From the NCBI RefSeq assembly GCF_018141445.1, contig NZ_CP058649.1:5475001-5539000 (forward strand): a stretch of 64,000 nucleotides of DNA, given 5' to 3'. Below are positions 484 to 51,720 of the stretch, piece by piece. Numbering within the stretch: position 1 is the stretch's first letter; every line of letters starts with the position of its first letter. The translations under genes and the position numbers were made by a program. The notes below the pieces were generated by a model that was not told where the DNA came from, did not search any database, and saw nothing but the letters and a program-made list of their open reading frames with translations. Source of the DNA: Vallitalea pronyensis (GTDB lineage: Bacteria; Bacillota; Clostridia; Lachnospirales; Vallitaleaceae).

Positions 484-1043
484 AAAGCAGCACCATCTTA
501 CGTTTTTTATTGTTAATATTTTATCAAATATATGCAAGATACAAGAGATATTATAACAAAAATAGTGACAAAAGTAAAGCAGCACTAATCGTTTTTATTG
601 ACATTTTTTTTATGGCATAAAATAAAATGGAAGAAAAGCTATAACGCCTTATATAGTAGGGTTTTAGCCTTTCTCAAAGCTGACGTATTTATCTATATTT
701 TTTATTTTCATTCTCGTATTTGTTTTATCTGTAACATGCATTTTTTAACTTTTACTGATTCAGGATAAGCATTCTTTGAATAACAAAATTAAGTAAAATG
801 ACAAAAAAAGACATAAACATTGTATTGTTTTTTCACGGATATACCCCTATTGATCTTATGCTACATGGCTTATTTTATCTTCTATATACCCACAAACTTA
901 TGAGAATAAGGCACTTTCTACAAATTCATCAACCTATAGGGTGACATCCATTATCATTTTTATGGTTTTAATAATGGTTATCATTATGTTGCAAGGTTCA
1001 TATTTAGCACTTTCAGCCATTAATCTCTTGTATAGAAGTGCAC
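484..1043. other. Gene-free AT-rich stretch between PHP gene and RPP terminator
   Basis: I see no coding frame with a credible ribosome site, no tRNA-like cloverleaf and no strong inverted repeat here. It should contain the promoter of the PHP gene near its left end. I could not pick a convincing -35/-10 pair. Confidence 0.4.
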
Positions 1044-1090
1044 AAAAAAACACTTGACATGATGATAGGATGCTTCACGCCAAGTGTTTT
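1044..1090 (-). terminator. Intrinsic terminator of the ribosomal-protection gene
   Basis: Read on the minus strand, AAAACACTTG pairs with CAAGTGTTTT across a 24-nt loop and is followed by a run of T (plus-strand A run at 1044-1050). It lies about 60 nt after the stop of the Tet(M)-like gene. Confidence 0.75.
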
Positions 1091-1151
1091 CTTAAATTTT
1101 TTTATTACGGTATGGATAAGTTGTCCTTCGAACCAAAAACAACCCTGAAAA

Positions 1152-3116: not shown

Positions 3117-3202
3117 CCTCACTTTTCGTAGGATGCTCTATGAAAACCATCATCTATACACGAACTGAAAAGTACCAATTCAAGGTGATCGTCTTGTTCA
3201 CT

Positions 3203-3286
3203 TTATCGTATCGTACTTGATGGTTTCTCATCACCATCCCTTATGATTTTTCTTTCTTTTACGACTTTCATTGTATTTTTTAGCAT
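3203..3286 (-). other. Possible 27-codon small ORF in the RPP leader
   Basis: ATG at 3286 to TAA at 3203 encodes a basic and charged peptide (MLKNTMKVVKERKI...). It lies between the leader terminator and the GTPase gene. The upstream GAAGTGG is a poor ribosome site. It could be a second leader peptide or chance. Confidence 0.25.
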
Positions 3287-3384
3287 ATAAGACCACTTCT
3301 TTCTTTTTATTTTTTATGATTATTGATTCTTCGTTTAATGCTCTAAACATAGCATGATGTACCACTTTCGATAAAATTGGGTAC

Positions 3385-3411
3385 AAAAAAACACAGAGTT
3401 CATCCTGTGTT
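3385..3411 (-). terminator. Intrinsic terminator upstream of the RPP gene, possible attenuator
   Basis: On the minus strand AACACAG pairs with CTGTGTT across an 8-nt loop and is followed directly by five or more T. It sits 270 nt upstream of the RPP start and 375 nt after the uvrA stop. It may simply end uvrBA transcripts. With the promoter-like sequence and short ORF at 3526-3612 it may instead act as a leader attenuator of the RPP gene. Confidence 0.65.
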
Positions 3412-3463
3412 ATGTGTTGACGCTATAACAGTACTATTGGACTCTTCACATGATAAATGAACC

Positions 3464-3497
3464 TAGCAAGAATAAACCTCTCTATAAGGTCTTGCTA
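3464..3497 (-). promoter_or_regulatory. Leader hairpin between short ORF and terminator
   Basis: TAGCAAG pairs with CTTGCTA, with an inner ACCT/AGGT helix. It lies just downstream of the 7-codon leader ORF and upstream of the 3385-3411 terminator, as in peptide-controlled attenuators. No pairing with the terminator arms is obvious. Confidence 0.4.
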
Positions 3498-3525
3498 AAC
3501 ATTCATTTATACTTGTATGCAGTTC

Positions 3526-3549
3526 CTACTGTATTTTTTCCTTTTTCAT
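3526..3549 (-). promoter_or_regulatory. Possible 7-residue leader peptide ORF (MKKEKIQ)
   Basis: GGAG at 3560-3563 lies 10 nt before an ATG that opens an 8-codon frame ending in TAG. It begins about 30 nt after a candidate -10. Very short ORFs of this kind precede tet(M) and other ribosome-targeting resistance genes in Firmicutes. Assignment as a leader peptide is inference. Confidence 0.35.
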
Positions 3550-3583
3550 ATACGATCATCTCCAATAATGAATTGGTAGTTTC

Positions 3584-3612
3584 ATGGTATCATTTTTCAT
3601 CCATAAAATCAA
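3584..3612 (-). promoter_or_regulatory. Candidate promoter of the RPP leader
   Basis: Minus-strand TTGATT (3612-3607) and TACCAT (3589-3584) are separated by exactly 17 nt. The -35 abuts the hairpin that follows uvrA. Confidence 0.35.
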
Positions 3613-3650
3613 GGAGAAGATTTACGCAGTTAAGCCTATTCTTCTCCTTG
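3610..3650 (-). terminator. Hairpin after uvrA, likely weak terminator
   Basis: An 11-bp perfect stem, CAAGGAGAAGA with TCTTCTCCTTG, lies about 140 nt after the uvrA stop. It is followed on the minus strand only by ATTTTA, so termination may be partial. Confidence 0.5.
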
Positions 3651-3787
3651 TACCTATTAATTTCTAAGTCCTATTAACTTTTTATTTTGCTTCATCATCG
3701 TTAATTCTTGTATTTGGGGTTAAATCATATGCTAATGGATACAGCTTCATATGAGAGTTGACCATTAACTTAAGTTTTAGCTTTTTA

Positions 3788-15608: not shown

Positions 15609-15760
15609 AAGAGGTAACCTATAATTTTGTAGATTTCCTCTTAAACTTTAACAGTTTGTTTACATTTATTAGTTGTTTTTTATAACAGATTTTATCAGAT
15701 AGGGACTTTTTTCATTTTAAATCATAGTCCACAGACTTATATCCATATGTAAGAGGTAAC
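15609..15760. repeat. Direct repeats AAGAGGTAAC upstream of the CdaR-type gene
   Basis: The same 10-mer occurs at 15609-15618 and 15751-15760, both in the 340-bp region upstream of the regulator. Possible autoregulatory sites. A promoter could not be fixed. Confidence 0.35.
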
Positions 15761-46121: not shown

Positions 46122-48065
46122 CTATCCCCTTGCAACTGATATTTCTCTGTGGTTAAGTCGTTGCATAAATTCTCCATTTACCACATTGTTTTCTATTTTA
46201 TACGTAGGTATCATCTCTGCTAATGATTGTTTAATCATTGCTCGATTATCTCTAGCTATTACTTCTCTTAACCCATCCAAACCTTGTAATAAACTATCAT
46301 AATCAATCTCAGCTGGCTTCCCAATAAATATCTTATGATGGGCTGTTGACGACATACCTTCTTCAGCCATGAGTAATTCCTCATATAATTTTTCACCTGG
46401 TCTTAGACCTGTTACCTCTATGGGTATATCAATATAAGGTTTTAAGCCTGATAGTTTAATAAGGTCTTTTGCAAGATCCATGATTTTAACAGGTTCTCCC
46501 ATATCAAGGATGAATATTTCACCTCCCTTAGCCATCGCACCAGCTTGCATGACAAGCTTAGCGGCTTCTGGAATCGTCATAAAATATCTTATAATATCCT
46601 CATGGGTAACTGTAATTGGACCGCCTTCAGCTATTTGACGCTTGAAGAGTGGGATCACACTACCGTTACTACCTAGAACATTACCAAAACGCACTGCAAC
46701 ATATTCTGTTTTAGAACGTTTATTGATGGATTGAATAATCAATTCACATGTTCTCTTTGTAGCTCCCATGACATTGGTTGGGTTAACAGCTTTGTCAGTC
46801 GATATAAGTACAAATTTTTTCACATTGTATATATCGGCAACTTGGGCGACATTAAGCGTCCCAAAGACATTATTTTTTATAGCTTCTGATGGATTATCTT
46901 CCATTAACGGTACATGTTTATGGGCCGCAGCGTGAAAAACCACATCAGGTTTATTCTGTCGGAATACTTTTTCTAAACGAAGTCTATCCCGTACAGAAGC
47001 AATGATTACCTTTAAGTACATCTTATCCTTGTGATAAACTTTTGGTTTCTCATCAGGACTAATCAACTGGACATTGTAGGTTCGACATAATTCATTTTGT
47101 AAATCATACGCATTGTTCTCATAGATATCTAGTATGATAAGCTCCCTGGGCGAAAAACTTGCAATTTGGCGACATAGCTCAGAGCCAATTGAGCCTCCAC
47201 CACCAGTTACCAAGACTTTTTTATTTTTTATGTAACTGCTGATACCATCCATGTTAAGTTTTACTTCTTCTCTACCTAGTAGATCTTCTATTTGAACGTC
47301 ACGTATATCGCTTAGTTTTACTTTTTTACTCATCATGGTGTACATGCTGGGTAGAATCCTTAGTTTACATTTGGTACGCCTGCATTCTTCTATGATAGCT
47401 TTTATATCATCCTTGCTTGCTGAAGGTAGAGCAATAATAATTTCATGTATGTTCTTTTTGAAAGCTACACTGGCTATGTCTAGCCTCTGACCAAGAACGG
47501 GTACATTATTGATGACTTGTCCTTGTTTTCTTCTGTCATCATCGATTAGTGCGATTGGTTTACCTGTGATGTTACGGTTGTTTTTTAGTTCTTTAATAAT
47601 CATGGCTCCAGCATCACCTGCACCAACAATCATAATTCTCTTTATTTCTTTCTTGCTGAATAATAGATCGCTGTGTTTGACACGTCTTAAGGTACGGTAT
47701 GTGAACCTTACACCACCAATAAACATTAATTCAAGAATAGGTGCCAATATGTATATGGACCTCGGTAAGTGCTGTTGTTGAAAATACAAATAGGCTAATA
47801 CCGATGCATTAGCTACGATAACACCACTTACGACCTGTATCATTTCTTCAATGCTGGCATATTTCCATAAACTCTGATAGAGTTTAAATATATAAAAGAC
47901 GACAAGTTTAATACATGTTATCATGATGATGTTGTCTATATATATATTAATATACTTTGGGTCAATATTCCAGTCAAATCTGACAAAACATGATAAAAAA
48001 TAGGCCAAATGTATTAGAAAAACATCCAGTAACATAAATATTAACATTTTTATTTTCTTATGCAT
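46122..48065 (-). CDS. PglF/CapD-type nucleoside-diphosphate-sugar 4,6-dehydratase
   Basis: 647 residues. Four to five N-terminal TM segments lead to a CoA-binding-like domain (GAGDAGAMIIKEL) and a C-terminal extended-SDR domain starting VTGGGGSIGSELCRQIA. HAAAHKHVPLM, STDKAVNPTNVMGATKR and RFGNVLGSNGSVIPLF are typical of the family, with Met in place of the usual SDR Tyr (MGATK). It converts UDP-GlcNAc to the 4-keto-6-deoxy sugar. It may feed bacillosamine-type or nonulosonic acid sugars. GGGGG precedes the ATG. Confidence 0.92.
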   Translation of the reverse strand: MHKKIKMLIFMLLDVFLIHLAYFLSCFVRFDWNIDPKYINIYIDNIIMITCIKLVVFYIFKLYQSLWKYASIEEMIQVVSGVIVANASVLAYLYFQQQHLPRSIYILAPILELMFIGGVRFTYRTLRRVKHSDLLFSKKEIKRIMIVGAGDAGAMIIKELKNNRNITGKPIALIDDDRRKQGQVINNVPVLGQRLDIASVAFKKNIHEIIIALPSASKDDIKAIIEECRRTKCKLRILPSMYTMMSKKVKLSDIRDVQIEDLLGREEVKLNMDGISSYIKNKKVLVTGGGGSIGSELCRQIASFSPRELIILDIYENNAYDLQNELCRTYNVQLISPDEKPKVYHKDKMYLKVIIASVRDRLRLEKVFRQNKPDVVFHAAAHKHVPLMEDNPSEAIKNNVFGTLNVAQVADIYNVKKFVLISTDKAVNPTNVMGATKRTCELIIQSINKRSKTEYVAVRFGNVLGSNGSVIPLFKRQIAEGGPITVTHEDIIRYFMTIPEAAKLVMQAGAMAKGGEIFILDMGEPVKIMDLAKDLIKLSGLKPYIDIPIEVTGLRPGEKLYEELLMAEEGMSSTAHHKIFIGKPAEIDYDSLLQGLDGLREVIARDNRAMIKQSLAEMIPTYKIENNVVNGEFMQRLNHREISVARG

Positions 48066-48829: not shown

Positions 48830-49303
48830 TTATTCCCCTTTATTTTTTCTAAACACCCCTATTAATAACGTACCTAACACAACTGCTGTTAGTGCTCCAG
48901 CACTATCCAATATTACATCACTAACCTGTCCACCCCTACCATCTACAAACGTCTGATGGTATTCATCAAATATGGCAAAGACAGTAGCTATTAACCATGC
49001 AACAATTAATGCCACTGCTTTTTTCTGGATCATGGCATATAATACCATGAAAGTAATAAATCCCAATATAAAATAAATGGTAAAATGTGTAGCCTTTCTT
49101 AAGTAATGATCCCATTGTTTTATGGTTGAATAATGGGTACTATTGGCTTCCTCTTCTGTCATGATACCTAGTCCTACTGCAACCTGCTTAACAATGCCTT
49201 TTGATAAGGCATCTGATTCCGTTGCTGTTTGTGCTGAAAATATGGTAATCGTAATCATAATGGCTATAATAACACTTATCCCAACTATATGTTTTGCTTT
49301 CAT
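48830..49303 (-). CDS. VanZ-like family membrane protein
   Basis: 157 residues. An N-terminal TM is followed by a polar loop, and three more TM segments carry the VanZ signature RKATHFTIYFILG and FDEYHQTFVDGRGGQVSDVILDSAG. VanZ relatives are linked to envelope-targeting antibiotic tolerance, mechanism unknown. It is monocistronic. AGAGAGG precedes the ATG. A candidate promoter (TTGTAA, 17 nt, TAACAT) lies at 49338-49366. Confidence 0.9.
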   Translation of the reverse strand: MKAKHIVGISVIIAIMITITIFSAQTATESDALSKGIVKQVAVGLGIMTEEEANSTHYSTIKQWDHYLRKATHFTIYFILGFITFMVLYAMIQKKAVALIVAWLIATVFAIFDEYHQTFVDGRGGQVSDVILDSAGALTAVVLGTLLIGVFRKNKGE

Positions 49304-49366: not shown

Positions 49367-49415
49367 CCTGTATATTATTGTTAATTAATTAACTTTGAAA
49401 TATTTTTTATTTTTT

Positions 49416-49456
49416 TGTAACCTTTTAGGTTATTTTGCCCCTTATATATATGAGAG
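49416..49456 (+). promoter_or_regulatory. ECF-type promoter, copy 1
   Basis: TGTAACCTTTT (49416-49426) and CTTATATATATGAGAG (49441-49456) are shared almost exactly with the promoter of the secreted-protein gene at 49853. The gap from TGTAACCTTT to CTTATA is 15 nt, the usual ECF spacing. TGTAAC resembles the -35 of ECF sigma factors. No coding gene follows; a multi-hairpin stretch does. Confidence 0.55.
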
Positions 49457-49749
49457 GGTTTTTAAATTGGTACATATAATAAACAATTGTTTAGCTTAAA
49501 TAGACGAGGATTACCCCTAATATAATCCTATATTCATTTCATGCTAAATAATCGTACATGTTCGCAATCAAAACGTCAAGTAGCGAACTCATTCCTAAAA
49601 GGGTATCTGCAAAGATACCCTTAGCTATGTTTTAATGAAATGTCTATCAACTAACCCAATAGGTAATGACTCTATAAATTGTATTATACATGCCATCATA
49701 AATCAACATGATAATTGATTAAATGTGTACAATTATCATGTTTTCTTTT
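49453..49749 (+). ncRNA. Candidate structured small RNA under ECF-type promoter
   Basis: There is no plausible ORF with a ribosome site on the plus strand. Four hairpins follow in series. AGGATTA/TAATCCT is at 49507-49529 and GTTCGC/GCGAAC at 49560-49588. AAGGGTATC/GATACCCTT is at 49599-49622. The fourth is a 13-bp AACATGATAATTG/CAATTATCATGTT at 49705-49742 with a TTTTCTTTT tail. The last is a strong intrinsic terminator in the plus direction. Expected transcript about 290 nt. It could also be a decayed protein gene or two adjacent untranslated regions. No family recognised. Confidence 0.45.
49705..49749 (+). terminator. Strong intrinsic terminator ending the candidate RNA
   Basis: 13-bp perfect stem, 12-nt loop, then TTTTCTTTT. 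It is correctly placed only for plus-strand transcription, yet no plus-strand protein gene ends nearby. Confidence 0.85.
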
Positions 49750-49852
49750 GTATCTTAGCCCTATTATAATTTGCATTTATTATTTAGTTTTCCCACAAAA
49801 TCAATCCCTTTAACTACTTTCTTTTTGAATAATTAAATTTCTTATATGTTTT

Positions 49853-49892
49853 TGTAACCTTTTGTTGTTTTAAAACCTTATATATATGAGAG
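49853..49892 (+). promoter_or_regulatory. ECF-type promoter, copy 2, of secreted-protein gene
   Basis: TGTAACCTTTT (49853-49863) and CTTATATATATGAGAG (49877-49892); the gap from TGTAACCTTT to CTTATA is 14 nt. The gene's ATG is about 40 nt after the predicted start point. An ECF sigma factor is encoded about 1.2 kb away in convergent orientation. Confidence 0.55.
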
Positions 49893-49931: not shown

Positions 49932-50396
49932 ATGAGAAAATTAAGGATTTTAGTATTAACTGTTGTTATGCTATGTATGTTTACTATTGGAGCTAGTGCA
50001 ATGGATAACGAAACATCATTGAGAGAGATTAGAATGGGAAATACGATTCTCCGTTCTATGCCTAGATCAACTGCTACGGATATCATTATCTATATGTCTG
50101 ACGCTGCTATCGGTTCTGAGTCCCAGATATCAACATCTAGTCAAACTTATACAGCTGTTGAATGTGAAACGATTAAAGTAGATGTATATGTTCAAAAGAA
50201 AAATTCTAATGGTTATTGGACAACTGTAAAAACTTTTTCCTTCACTGAAGAAAATACAGATTATGTTGGTGTGTACCCTGCATATCATGATGTAGAATCC
50301 GGTTCTACCTACCGAACGAAAGCTTATAGATATGCAACTGTTGATGGAACAACTTACTACGATTATAACTGTTCTTCTGAAACCACAATTAAGTAA
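49932..50396 (+). CDS. Small secreted protein of unknown function
   Basis: 154 residues with a clear signal peptide (about 1-23, cut after GASA). The mature part is 130 residues, Thr/Ser/Tyr-rich and beta-rich, with VDVYVQKKNSNGYWTTVKTF and GSTYRTKAYRYATVDGTTYY, resembling a single Ig- or FN3-like sandwich. I do not recognise the family with certainty. AAAGGA lies 9-10 nt before the ATG. The upstream ECF-type promoter and the neighbouring sigma/anti-sigma pair suggest it belongs to an envelope-stress regulon. Confidence 0.8.
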   Translation: MRKLRILVLTVVMLCMFTIGASAMDNETSLREIRMGNTILRSMPRSTATDIIIYMSDAAIGSESQISTSSQTYTAVECETIKVDVYVQKKNSNGYWTTVKTFSFTEENTDYVGVYPAYHDVESGSTYRTKAYRYATVDGTTYYDYNCSSETTIK

Positions 50397-50440: not shown

Positions 50441-51160
50441 CTACTGATTACTAAATAAATCTACTTGATTAAGCATATCTTGATAAACGTTACTTGATAT
50501 TTCAAACTCTATGTTCTCCTTCGTAAATAAGCAAATGTTCAGTTGCTTACTTTCTAGGATTACAAGTTCAATACCGTTTCGTTTCATTGATTTTATGTTA
50601 AAGATACTATCATTAAATGTGGCTGTGGTTCCCGAACCTTCTGCTACATCTTTTTGTATAATTTTAATTCTGTCTTCTGAATCTTTATGTTTCAAATCGA
50701 TTCTTAGTATACCTATATCGGCTGTTGCTTTCACAAAATCATAAGCATTAGGTATCGCAGTAGATACATATTCTTTTCCATAAAGTTCTGCTAATTCCTC
50801 AATCTGTCTATCCATATTTTCATTTTGATAAGACTCTTCTTCTAGGTGGACGCCACGTTCATAAAAAGTAATTGTATTACCACTAATATCTATTAACAAT
50901 CGCTTAAATAAACTTGCGTCACTTGTTAAATCAACACTTACCAATAATACAATCACCAAACTACACACAAAAGCTAAACGATATATGCGCCTTTTCTTGT
51001 ATTTTTTTACCATGTTTCTCTCATGAATCTCATGATGTAAGTTATGCCATATTCTGTTCTTAGCCCCCTGGTCAATCTGTATTGCATCGGCATGATTAAC
51101 TACATATGTACTCAGTCTACGATCTAGCTCGTTATATGCGCATGCTTTCTTTTTCTTCAT
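50441..51160 (-). CDS. Anti-sigma factor, single-pass membrane protein
   Basis: 239 residues. A cytoplasmic N-terminal domain of about 60 residues (NELDRRLSTYVVNHADAIQ...) is followed by a very basic stretch, one TM segment at about 63-80, and an external domain of about 155 residues. Gene order and topology fit an anti-sigma factor that holds the ECF sigma encoded just upstream. The external domain resembles the DUF4367-type sensors only loosely. It overlaps the sigma gene by 29 nt, giving coupled translation. AAGGAA lies about 9 nt before the ATG. Confidence 0.8.
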   Translation of the reverse strand: MKKKKACAYNELDRRLSTYVVNHADAIQIDQGAKNRIWHNLHHEIHERNMVKKYKKRRIYRLAFVCSLVIVLLVSVDLTSDASLFKRLLIDISGNTITFYERGVHLEEESYQNENMDRQIEELAELYGKEYVSTAIPNAYDFVKATADIGILRIDLKHKDSEDRIKIIQKDVAEGSGTTATFNDSIFNIKSMKRNGIELVILESKQLNICLFTKENIEFEISSNVYQDMLNQVDLFSNQ

Positions 51161-51668
51161 CGGTGATCGTTCCTTCCATCTTCTCCCATAATATCTTTCT
51201 TGTTCGATGTAACTTGACTTTTGTGTAAGGCAGGGATATTTTCAATATGTTTGAAATCTCTTTGAGTTTATAGCCTTGTGCTGCTAATATAATGACTTCT
51301 CGATCTTTTACTGGTATATCTTCTAACATCTGCGAAAAAAAGATATCTTCAAATGCTTCTCCAATACTATCTACATCTGAGCTAATTTCTTCATTAATAG
51401 TCGTAGGGAATAGACTATTTCTTCTAGCGTTCTCCTTAGCTCTTTTTAATGCGTCATTATACGCAACTCTTAGAAGATAGTTACGAAAGTGATTCGAGTC
51501 TTTCATTCTTGCCATATTTTTGAAGGTAATTCGAAAAGAATCTTGTGTTATTTCTTCACTATCTTCCTTATTTTTAACTATCCGATATGCTGTCCCATAA
51601 ACAAGTTTATAATATGTCTGATACAAGTACTGTAATTGGTCATCGTGATCCCCATGGTTATTTAGCAT
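51132..51668 (-). CDS. ECF RNA polymerase sigma factor
   Basis: 178 residues. Region 2 (YLYQTYYKLVYGTAYRIVKN and EEITQDSFRITFKNM) and region 4 (PVKDREVIILAAQGYKLKEI then LPYTKVKLHRTRKILWEKM) are intact, with no region 3, as in ECF sigmas. Start ATG 51668 is chosen for GGGAG 7-8 nt upstream; the frame extends to a TTG at 51716. It is likely inactive until the anti-sigma factor releases it. The twin TGTAACCTTTT promoters at 49.4 and 49.9 kb are its best candidate targets. I did not find a clear copy upstream of its own gene. Confidence 0.93.
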   Translation of the reverse strand: MLNNHGDHDDQLQYLYQTYYKLVYGTAYRIVKNKEDSEEITQDSFRITFKNMARMKDSNHFRNYLLRVAYNDALKRAKENARRNSLFPTTINEEISSDVDSIGEAFEDIFFSQMLEDIPVKDREVIILAAQGYKLKEISNILKISLPYTKVKLHRTRKILWEKMEGTITDEEKESMRI

Positions 51669-51720
51669 AATGCCACTCCCTTGTAGTAATAATCTGTTAT
51701 TCGTTTCACTACACAAGGTT

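Follow-up and report, generated by a model that had tools for sequence, protein, structure and literature searches.

A candidate noncoding RNA behind a duplicated ECF-type promoter, and a conserved candidate RNA family sharing that promoter, in a Clostridial genus

Two near-identical promoter-like blocks lie on the same strand beside an extracytoplasmic-function (ECF) sigma factor gene in the 64,000-nt stretch of DNA analysed here ("the window"; coordinates without a prefix are positions within it on the forward strand, and G000 denotes the source genome). One of them precedes a gene and the other does not, which raises the question of what, if anything, is made from the promoter that has no gene. 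An earlier note on this DNA, written from the letters alone, proposed a stress-induced small RNA with four hairpins belonging to the regulon of the neighbouring sigma factor. Here, we examined the promoter, the predicted transcript, and their relatives in the genus, family, and order, and weighed the small-RNA reading against four alternatives; the features concerned are collected in Table 1.

Table 1. Positions and supporting evidence for the features discussed
Feature	Position	Strand	Evidence
Promoter P1: TGTAACCTTTT, 14 nt, CTTATATATATGAGAG	49416..49456	+	two-block match
Candidate noncoding RNA, ~297 nt	49453..49750	+	no ORF, fold z -4.54; ends inferred
Stem enclosing hairpin 49507-49529; loop ACCCCUAAU is C-rich	49487..49551	+	z -3.24, 0/200 shuffles as stable
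Hairpin GTTCGC/GCGAAC	49560..49588	+	300-nt fold
Hairpin AAGGGTATC/GATACCCTT	49599..49622	+	300-nt fold and terminator scanner
Intrinsic terminator (hairpin 49705-49742 with AT-rich stem, then a T-rich tail)	49705..49751	+	16th of 472
Promoter P2: same blocks as P1, 13 nt between	49853..49892	+	two-block match
First gene behind P2: exported-type protein of 154 aa	49932..50396	+	no Pfam family at cut-off
Candidate anti-sigma factor, 239 aa	50441..51160	-	position; sub-threshold DUF4367 match
ECF sigma factor (178 aa if begun at ATG; TTG start at 51716 possible)	51132..51668	-	profile matches
Conserved RNA, source copy	G000:C1:515576-515732 = L012:350-505	-	relatives L014, L018, L022, L027, L066

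The two-block arrangement of P1 and P2 occurs exactly twice in the window, and none of 100 shuffled versions contained two matches. Both copies were found where the earlier note had placed them, at 49416 and 49853, though its gaps of 15 and 14 nt proved to be 14 and 13 nt, and P2 does stand ahead of a secreted-protein gene as had been described (the structure prediction for this protein from its single sequence was poor, pLDDT 48.7, and was not used). The P1 blocks probably represent the -35 side and the -10 side with the start region, element names that we infer, and transcription would begin at about 49452-49454.

Beyond the window, the pattern TGTAACNTTNTN{13,14}CTTATA was searched in six genomes of the genus and 16 others of the family, yielding 19 sites that were spread over all six genus genomes and absent from the other 16, while the same pattern read backward gave one site in the genus and two elsewhere in the family. 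Thirteen of these sites precede an ORF of at least 60 aa that has a ribosome-binding site and whose product is hydrophobic at the N-terminus, namely nine members of the 49932-50396 family and four other exported-type proteins. The remaining six have no ORF of this kind within 330 nt downstream, and comprise P1 itself and five copies of a single conserved RNA described below. In a nucleotide search with 49400-49760 as the query, matches at E<=1e-5, self aside, were found in all five other genus genomes (one match in G003) and at three further places in the source genome, and were confined to the first 87 bases of the query. Nineteen stretches were retrieved, and those without the promoter (L026, L028, L029, and L030) were dropped. 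Relaxing the pattern to three or fewer mismatches mostly added noise, as backward controls were similarly frequent in many genomes, and such near matches were left out of the 19-site count; three of them (G001 C51:208, G005 C10:3759, and G000:C1:2945197) lie upstream of open frames whose N-termini are of the exported type, making them possible regulon members, and another (G004:2561774) sits within an open frame.

The sigma factor is distributed in the same way as the promoter. Relatives of the sigma protein (E<=1e-20) and of the candidate anti-sigma protein (E<=1e-8) were each present in 6/6 genus genomes and 0/16 elsewhere in the family, which supports the view, from comparison of these genomes, that the promoter block marks a regulon whose common signature is confined to sigma-bearing genomes. 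The identity of the sigma protein is backed by an NCBIfam ECF superfamily match above cut-off and by a region 2 match above cut-off, with region 4 falling just below (25.3 vs 25.7 bits). Of the adjacent sigma/anti-sigma pair that had been claimed, the sigma gene is there, while its partner is a candidate by position with the sub-threshold DUF4367 match. Two sigma cassettes are carried by the source genome, the one in the window and one at G000:C1:1168946-1170745 (L059), the latter consisting of sigma, candidate anti-sigma, and secreted-protein genes, its sigma 63% identical to that of the window. Scanning genome contigs for the sigma protein yielded a single distant locus, which is irrelevant here. 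In G004 (L060) and G005 (L061), pairs of candidate anti-sigma and secreted-protein genes carry the promoter without an adjoining sigma gene. It is common, though not universal, for an ECF sigma gene to stand under its own promoter. That usual autoregulation was not seen here, with the promoter site upstream of 0/7 sigma genes, and the link between sigma factor and promoter therefore rests on adjacency and co-occurrence. On those grounds, the ECF sigma encoded at 51132-51668, or its paralogue, probably reads this promoter.

What lies behind P1 is a stretch with little coding potential. Between 49453 and 49931, there is no plus-strand ORF of at least 40 aa, and the longest frames starting within the RNA and before the terminator span 25-27 aa (at 49541, 49558, and 49635), with no Shine-Dalgarno-like sequence upstream of them. 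GAGAGGG stands 8 nt ahead of one TTG frame of 10 codons at 49467, at the extreme 5' end of the inferred RNA, so that no frame above 10 codons has a ribosome-binding site, in keeping with the description of the stretch as ORF-less. This small frame, together with the three of 25-27 codons, is what could be offered for a P1 transcript encoding a very short peptide, a reading that we consider very unlikely given that the longer frames lack the ribosome-binding sites carried by the regulon's 13 mRNAs and that no homologue with a conserved frame was found.

The stretch is also predicted to be strongly structured. Folding 49453-49752 (300 nt) gave -67.1 kcal/mol (z -4.54), with 0/200 shuffles as stable, and stem-loops are predicted at the four places given in Table 1, the first of them enclosing a nested hairpin. 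When the intergenic DNA of the window was ranked as 174 pieces of 150 nt, each against 60 shuffles, 49504-49653 on the plus strand came third (z -4.36), while three overlapping plus-strand pieces ranked only 27th, 68th, and 88th. Strong predicted intergenic folds (z about -4 to -5) without an Rfam match also occur elsewhere in the window, at 951-1150 (minus) and 3123-3722 (both strands). The same 49504-49653 piece folds well on the minus strand (z -3.01), where sigma-70-like matches are also found, and the structure might accordingly sit in an extended leader upstream of the VanZ-like gene at 48830-49303. These matches, however, are no commoner than in shuffles (30 vs 32.3), and the plus strand both folds better and carries the promoter, which makes a minus-strand leader highly improbable and, to us, the least credible of the alternatives.

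The predicted transcript ends at the hairpin 49705-49742 (-12.6 kcal/mol), which has an AT-rich stem and an interrupted tail, TTCTTTTGT, and ranks 16th among 472 T-tailed hairpins in the window; one terminator scanner listed the hairpin at 49599 and did not list this one. A plus-strand hairpin with a T-rich tail is hence present as the earlier note had it, but it is a good to moderate terminator rather than a textbook one. The left-hand neighbours, the VanZ-like gene and a polysaccharide biosynthesis gene (46122-48065), are on the minus strand, and because these are the nearest upstream genes, the plus-strand terminator has no obvious gene to serve.

The terminator-like hairpin also lies upstream of 49932, and P1, P2, and that gene follow one another on the same strand, with P1 and P2 80% identical over 78 bases. 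P1 and P2 could then be tandem promoters of 49932, with a structured leader between them, an attenuator at 49705-49751, and an RNA that acts in cis. We judge this unlikely. P2 alone already gives the usual spacing, its site lying 79 nt from the start codon of 49932, a distance that is 75-101 nt in the eight remaining members of the family; no other pair among the pattern sites stands as close together as P1 and P2; and no alternative antiterminator fold has been put forward.

Another origin for P1 is suggested by its own sequence, since P1 and the first transcribed bases resemble the promoters of secreted-protein genes (the best in G004, 85% over 69 bases), and P1 could be the remnant of a duplicated promoter-gene unit that has lost its gene, any RNA made there being functionless. 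Two weak, roughly colinear tblastn matches to the secreted-protein family (E 0.08, in different frames) point the same way. We nevertheless find this quite unlikely: the protein-family profile, with stops read as X, scored at chance on the stretch (283/500 shuffles as high), on which ground a decayed gene of the 49932 family was rejected, and the fold is unusually stable, with a terminator-like hairpin at its end. A genuine sigma-dependent noncoding transcript from P1 is, in our assessment of these sequence features, likely.

Nothing homologous to the body of this RNA turned up in the other five genomes of the genus, and a search of 295 genomes of the order, in which two candidates were scored per genome, returned for it one 29-base match in one genome (E 7e-4), about the chance level over so many genomes. 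Rfam gave no match in the window at gathering score, and the SNORD87 and mir-374 matches that appeared at lower thresholds on the minus strand of the stretch were rejected as chance. The earlier note had set two outcomes against its own proposal. A conserved reading frame was not found in the window RNA; an absence of conservation, taken literally and for the genomes searched here, was. Its placing of a small RNA in the sigma regulon is partly supported: comparison backs the shared sigma-type promoter, which defines a regulon, and the presence of noncoding RNA within it, while the stress induction it named is a prediction, and conservation of the window RNA itself received no support. It is plausible, from this distribution, that the window RNA, known from one genome, is a second, young, and species-specific noncoding member of the regulon.

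The other noncoding member lies outside the window. The five ORF-less sites other than P1 all head one RNA, found at G000:C1:515576-515732 and as relatives in G001, G002, G004, and G005. A covariance model, R1, was built from four copies, leaving the G003 and G002 copies independent of the model, and base pairs of all six copies were counted in two halves because including the whole G002 copy misplaced alignments. R1 matched 6/6 genus genomes (E<=3e-12), finding a sixth copy in G003 (E 1.5e-21), where the promoter has two mismatches to the consensus, and the split copy in G002 (E 3e-12), which carries an insert of ~146 nt between L018 268 and 439. The RNA measures 155-173 nt in five genomes. 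Against 190 other genomes of the order, R1 gave no match at E<=0.001, the filters used being of a kind that drops weak ones. R1 also hit G009, G008, and G015 weakly (E 0.2-0.6), which we set down to chance. A thymidine kinase gene (tdk) adjoins the RNA in 5/6 genomes, and genes for polymerase IV and for an 87-aa product are nearby in 6/6 (neighbours were assigned by Pfam for G004 and by eye for the other genomes). DnaA-box-like TTATCCACA sites were seen to the right of the RNA in five genomes (L053-L056 and L066) and not in the source stretch that was read (L052).

Within the conserved RNA, it was the 3' half that showed the strongest covariation: there, 98.4% of cells pair, both sides have changed in 6/22 pairs, and 0/500 shuffles reached as high, for six genomes and with shuffles that leave relatedness in; when partners were shifted by one column as a control, two double-changed pairs still remained. 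The 5' half is consistent with its fold, with covariation that is not significant (90/500 shuffles as high). In all six copies, GCCC is found in two hairpin loops. No Rfam match was obtained in the five copies scanned (the G003 copy was left out), an IBV_D-RNA match in L014 lying outside the RNA and being regarded as chance. Taken together, we propose this RNA as a candidate new RNA family. That a conserved, ORF-less RNA stands behind the same promoter makes a noncoding RNA within the regulon likelier, and from these comparisons it is very probable that noncoding RNA forms one arm of the regulon.

The window RNA resembles the conserved tdk RNA in its promoter, the absence of an ORF, several hairpins, a terminator-like end, and a C-rich loop, and differs from it in having no sequence or model similarity to it and in occurring in one genome rather than in 6/6 genus genomes. 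The possibility that it is a copy of the conserved RNA was rejected, as the sole R1 hits in the window, at 15700 (E 0.31) and 9847 (E 0.76), fall outside 49453-49750.

How might such RNAs act? The explanation that we favour, and hold to be reasonably probable, is that P1 is a genuine ECF-sigma promoter driving a noncoding RNA of the regulon that most likely acts in trans. P1 would be read by the ECF sigma at 51132-51668 or by its paralogue at G000:C1:1168946-1169458, and the resulting transcript of ~297 nt would end at the terminator at 49705-49751, joining a regulon of exported-type proteins and at least one conserved small RNA. The RNA would then most likely pair in trans with mRNAs, potentially adding repression to what is otherwise an activating sigma factor, the part that MicA and RybB play in the E. 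coli RpoE system; its exposed C-rich loop and UCAUUCCU could pair with purine-rich ribosome-binding sites, and so could the C-rich loops of the conserved RNA. Induction by envelope stress would be expected, and the whole looks like the small-RNA branch of an envelope-sensing control system.

A pairing scan of 51 mRNA starts, weighted by RNA accessibility, gave no regulon mRNA that stands out. With the window RNA, the paralogue's mRNA tied for 10th and the neighbouring gene 49932 was 46th of 51; with the conserved RNA, these were tied 39-42 and 30th of 51, respectively. In the prediction, UCAUUCCU of the window RNA is able to pair with GGGAAUGA of the paralogue's mRNA. This mRNA was rejected as a target, and we claim none, because another window gene scores equally and 9/51 starts score better. 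That the window RNA is a trans-acting regulator at all we put, on the present analysis, at an even chance.

The nearest parallel is the well-studied RpoE (sigma-E) of E. coli, an ECF sigma factor served by repressing small RNAs, which, as passages of PMC8103513 describe, activates protein genes and represses others through MicA, RybB, and MicL. The likeness to the RpoE regulon described there would lie in the activation of both envelope-related genes and small RNAs by one ECF sigma factor; the differences are another promoter sequence and another lineage, and RNAs that here are known from sequence, neither of them with an Rfam match. For Clostridia, the system treated in PMC7438776 is alike in having ECF sigma factors, and in the parts of that paper drawn on here, the consensus sequences of its three ECF sigma factors remained to be identified, and most noncoding RNAs were assigned SigA promoters, a few being put under SigD, SigB, or sporulation sigma factors. 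None of the titles listed in our literature search dealt with a Clostridial small RNA dependent on an ECF sigma factor, from which we claim no absence from print; the kind is already known from E. coli, and the members are new as far as our searches reach. We give roughly equal odds, for and against, to the broader proposal that one Clostridial ECF sigma controls exported proteins and two unrelated, ORF-less, structured RNAs, one genus-wide and the other young, species-specific, and beside the sigma cassette; the envelope regulon would then have a small-RNA arm that evolved independently and bears comparison with RpoE, MicA, and RybB. The promoter signature and the covariance model R1 provide means of finding further members, and, if true, a Clostridial regulon with a conserved and a young RNA would suggest that the design known from E. 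coli RpoE arose more than once.
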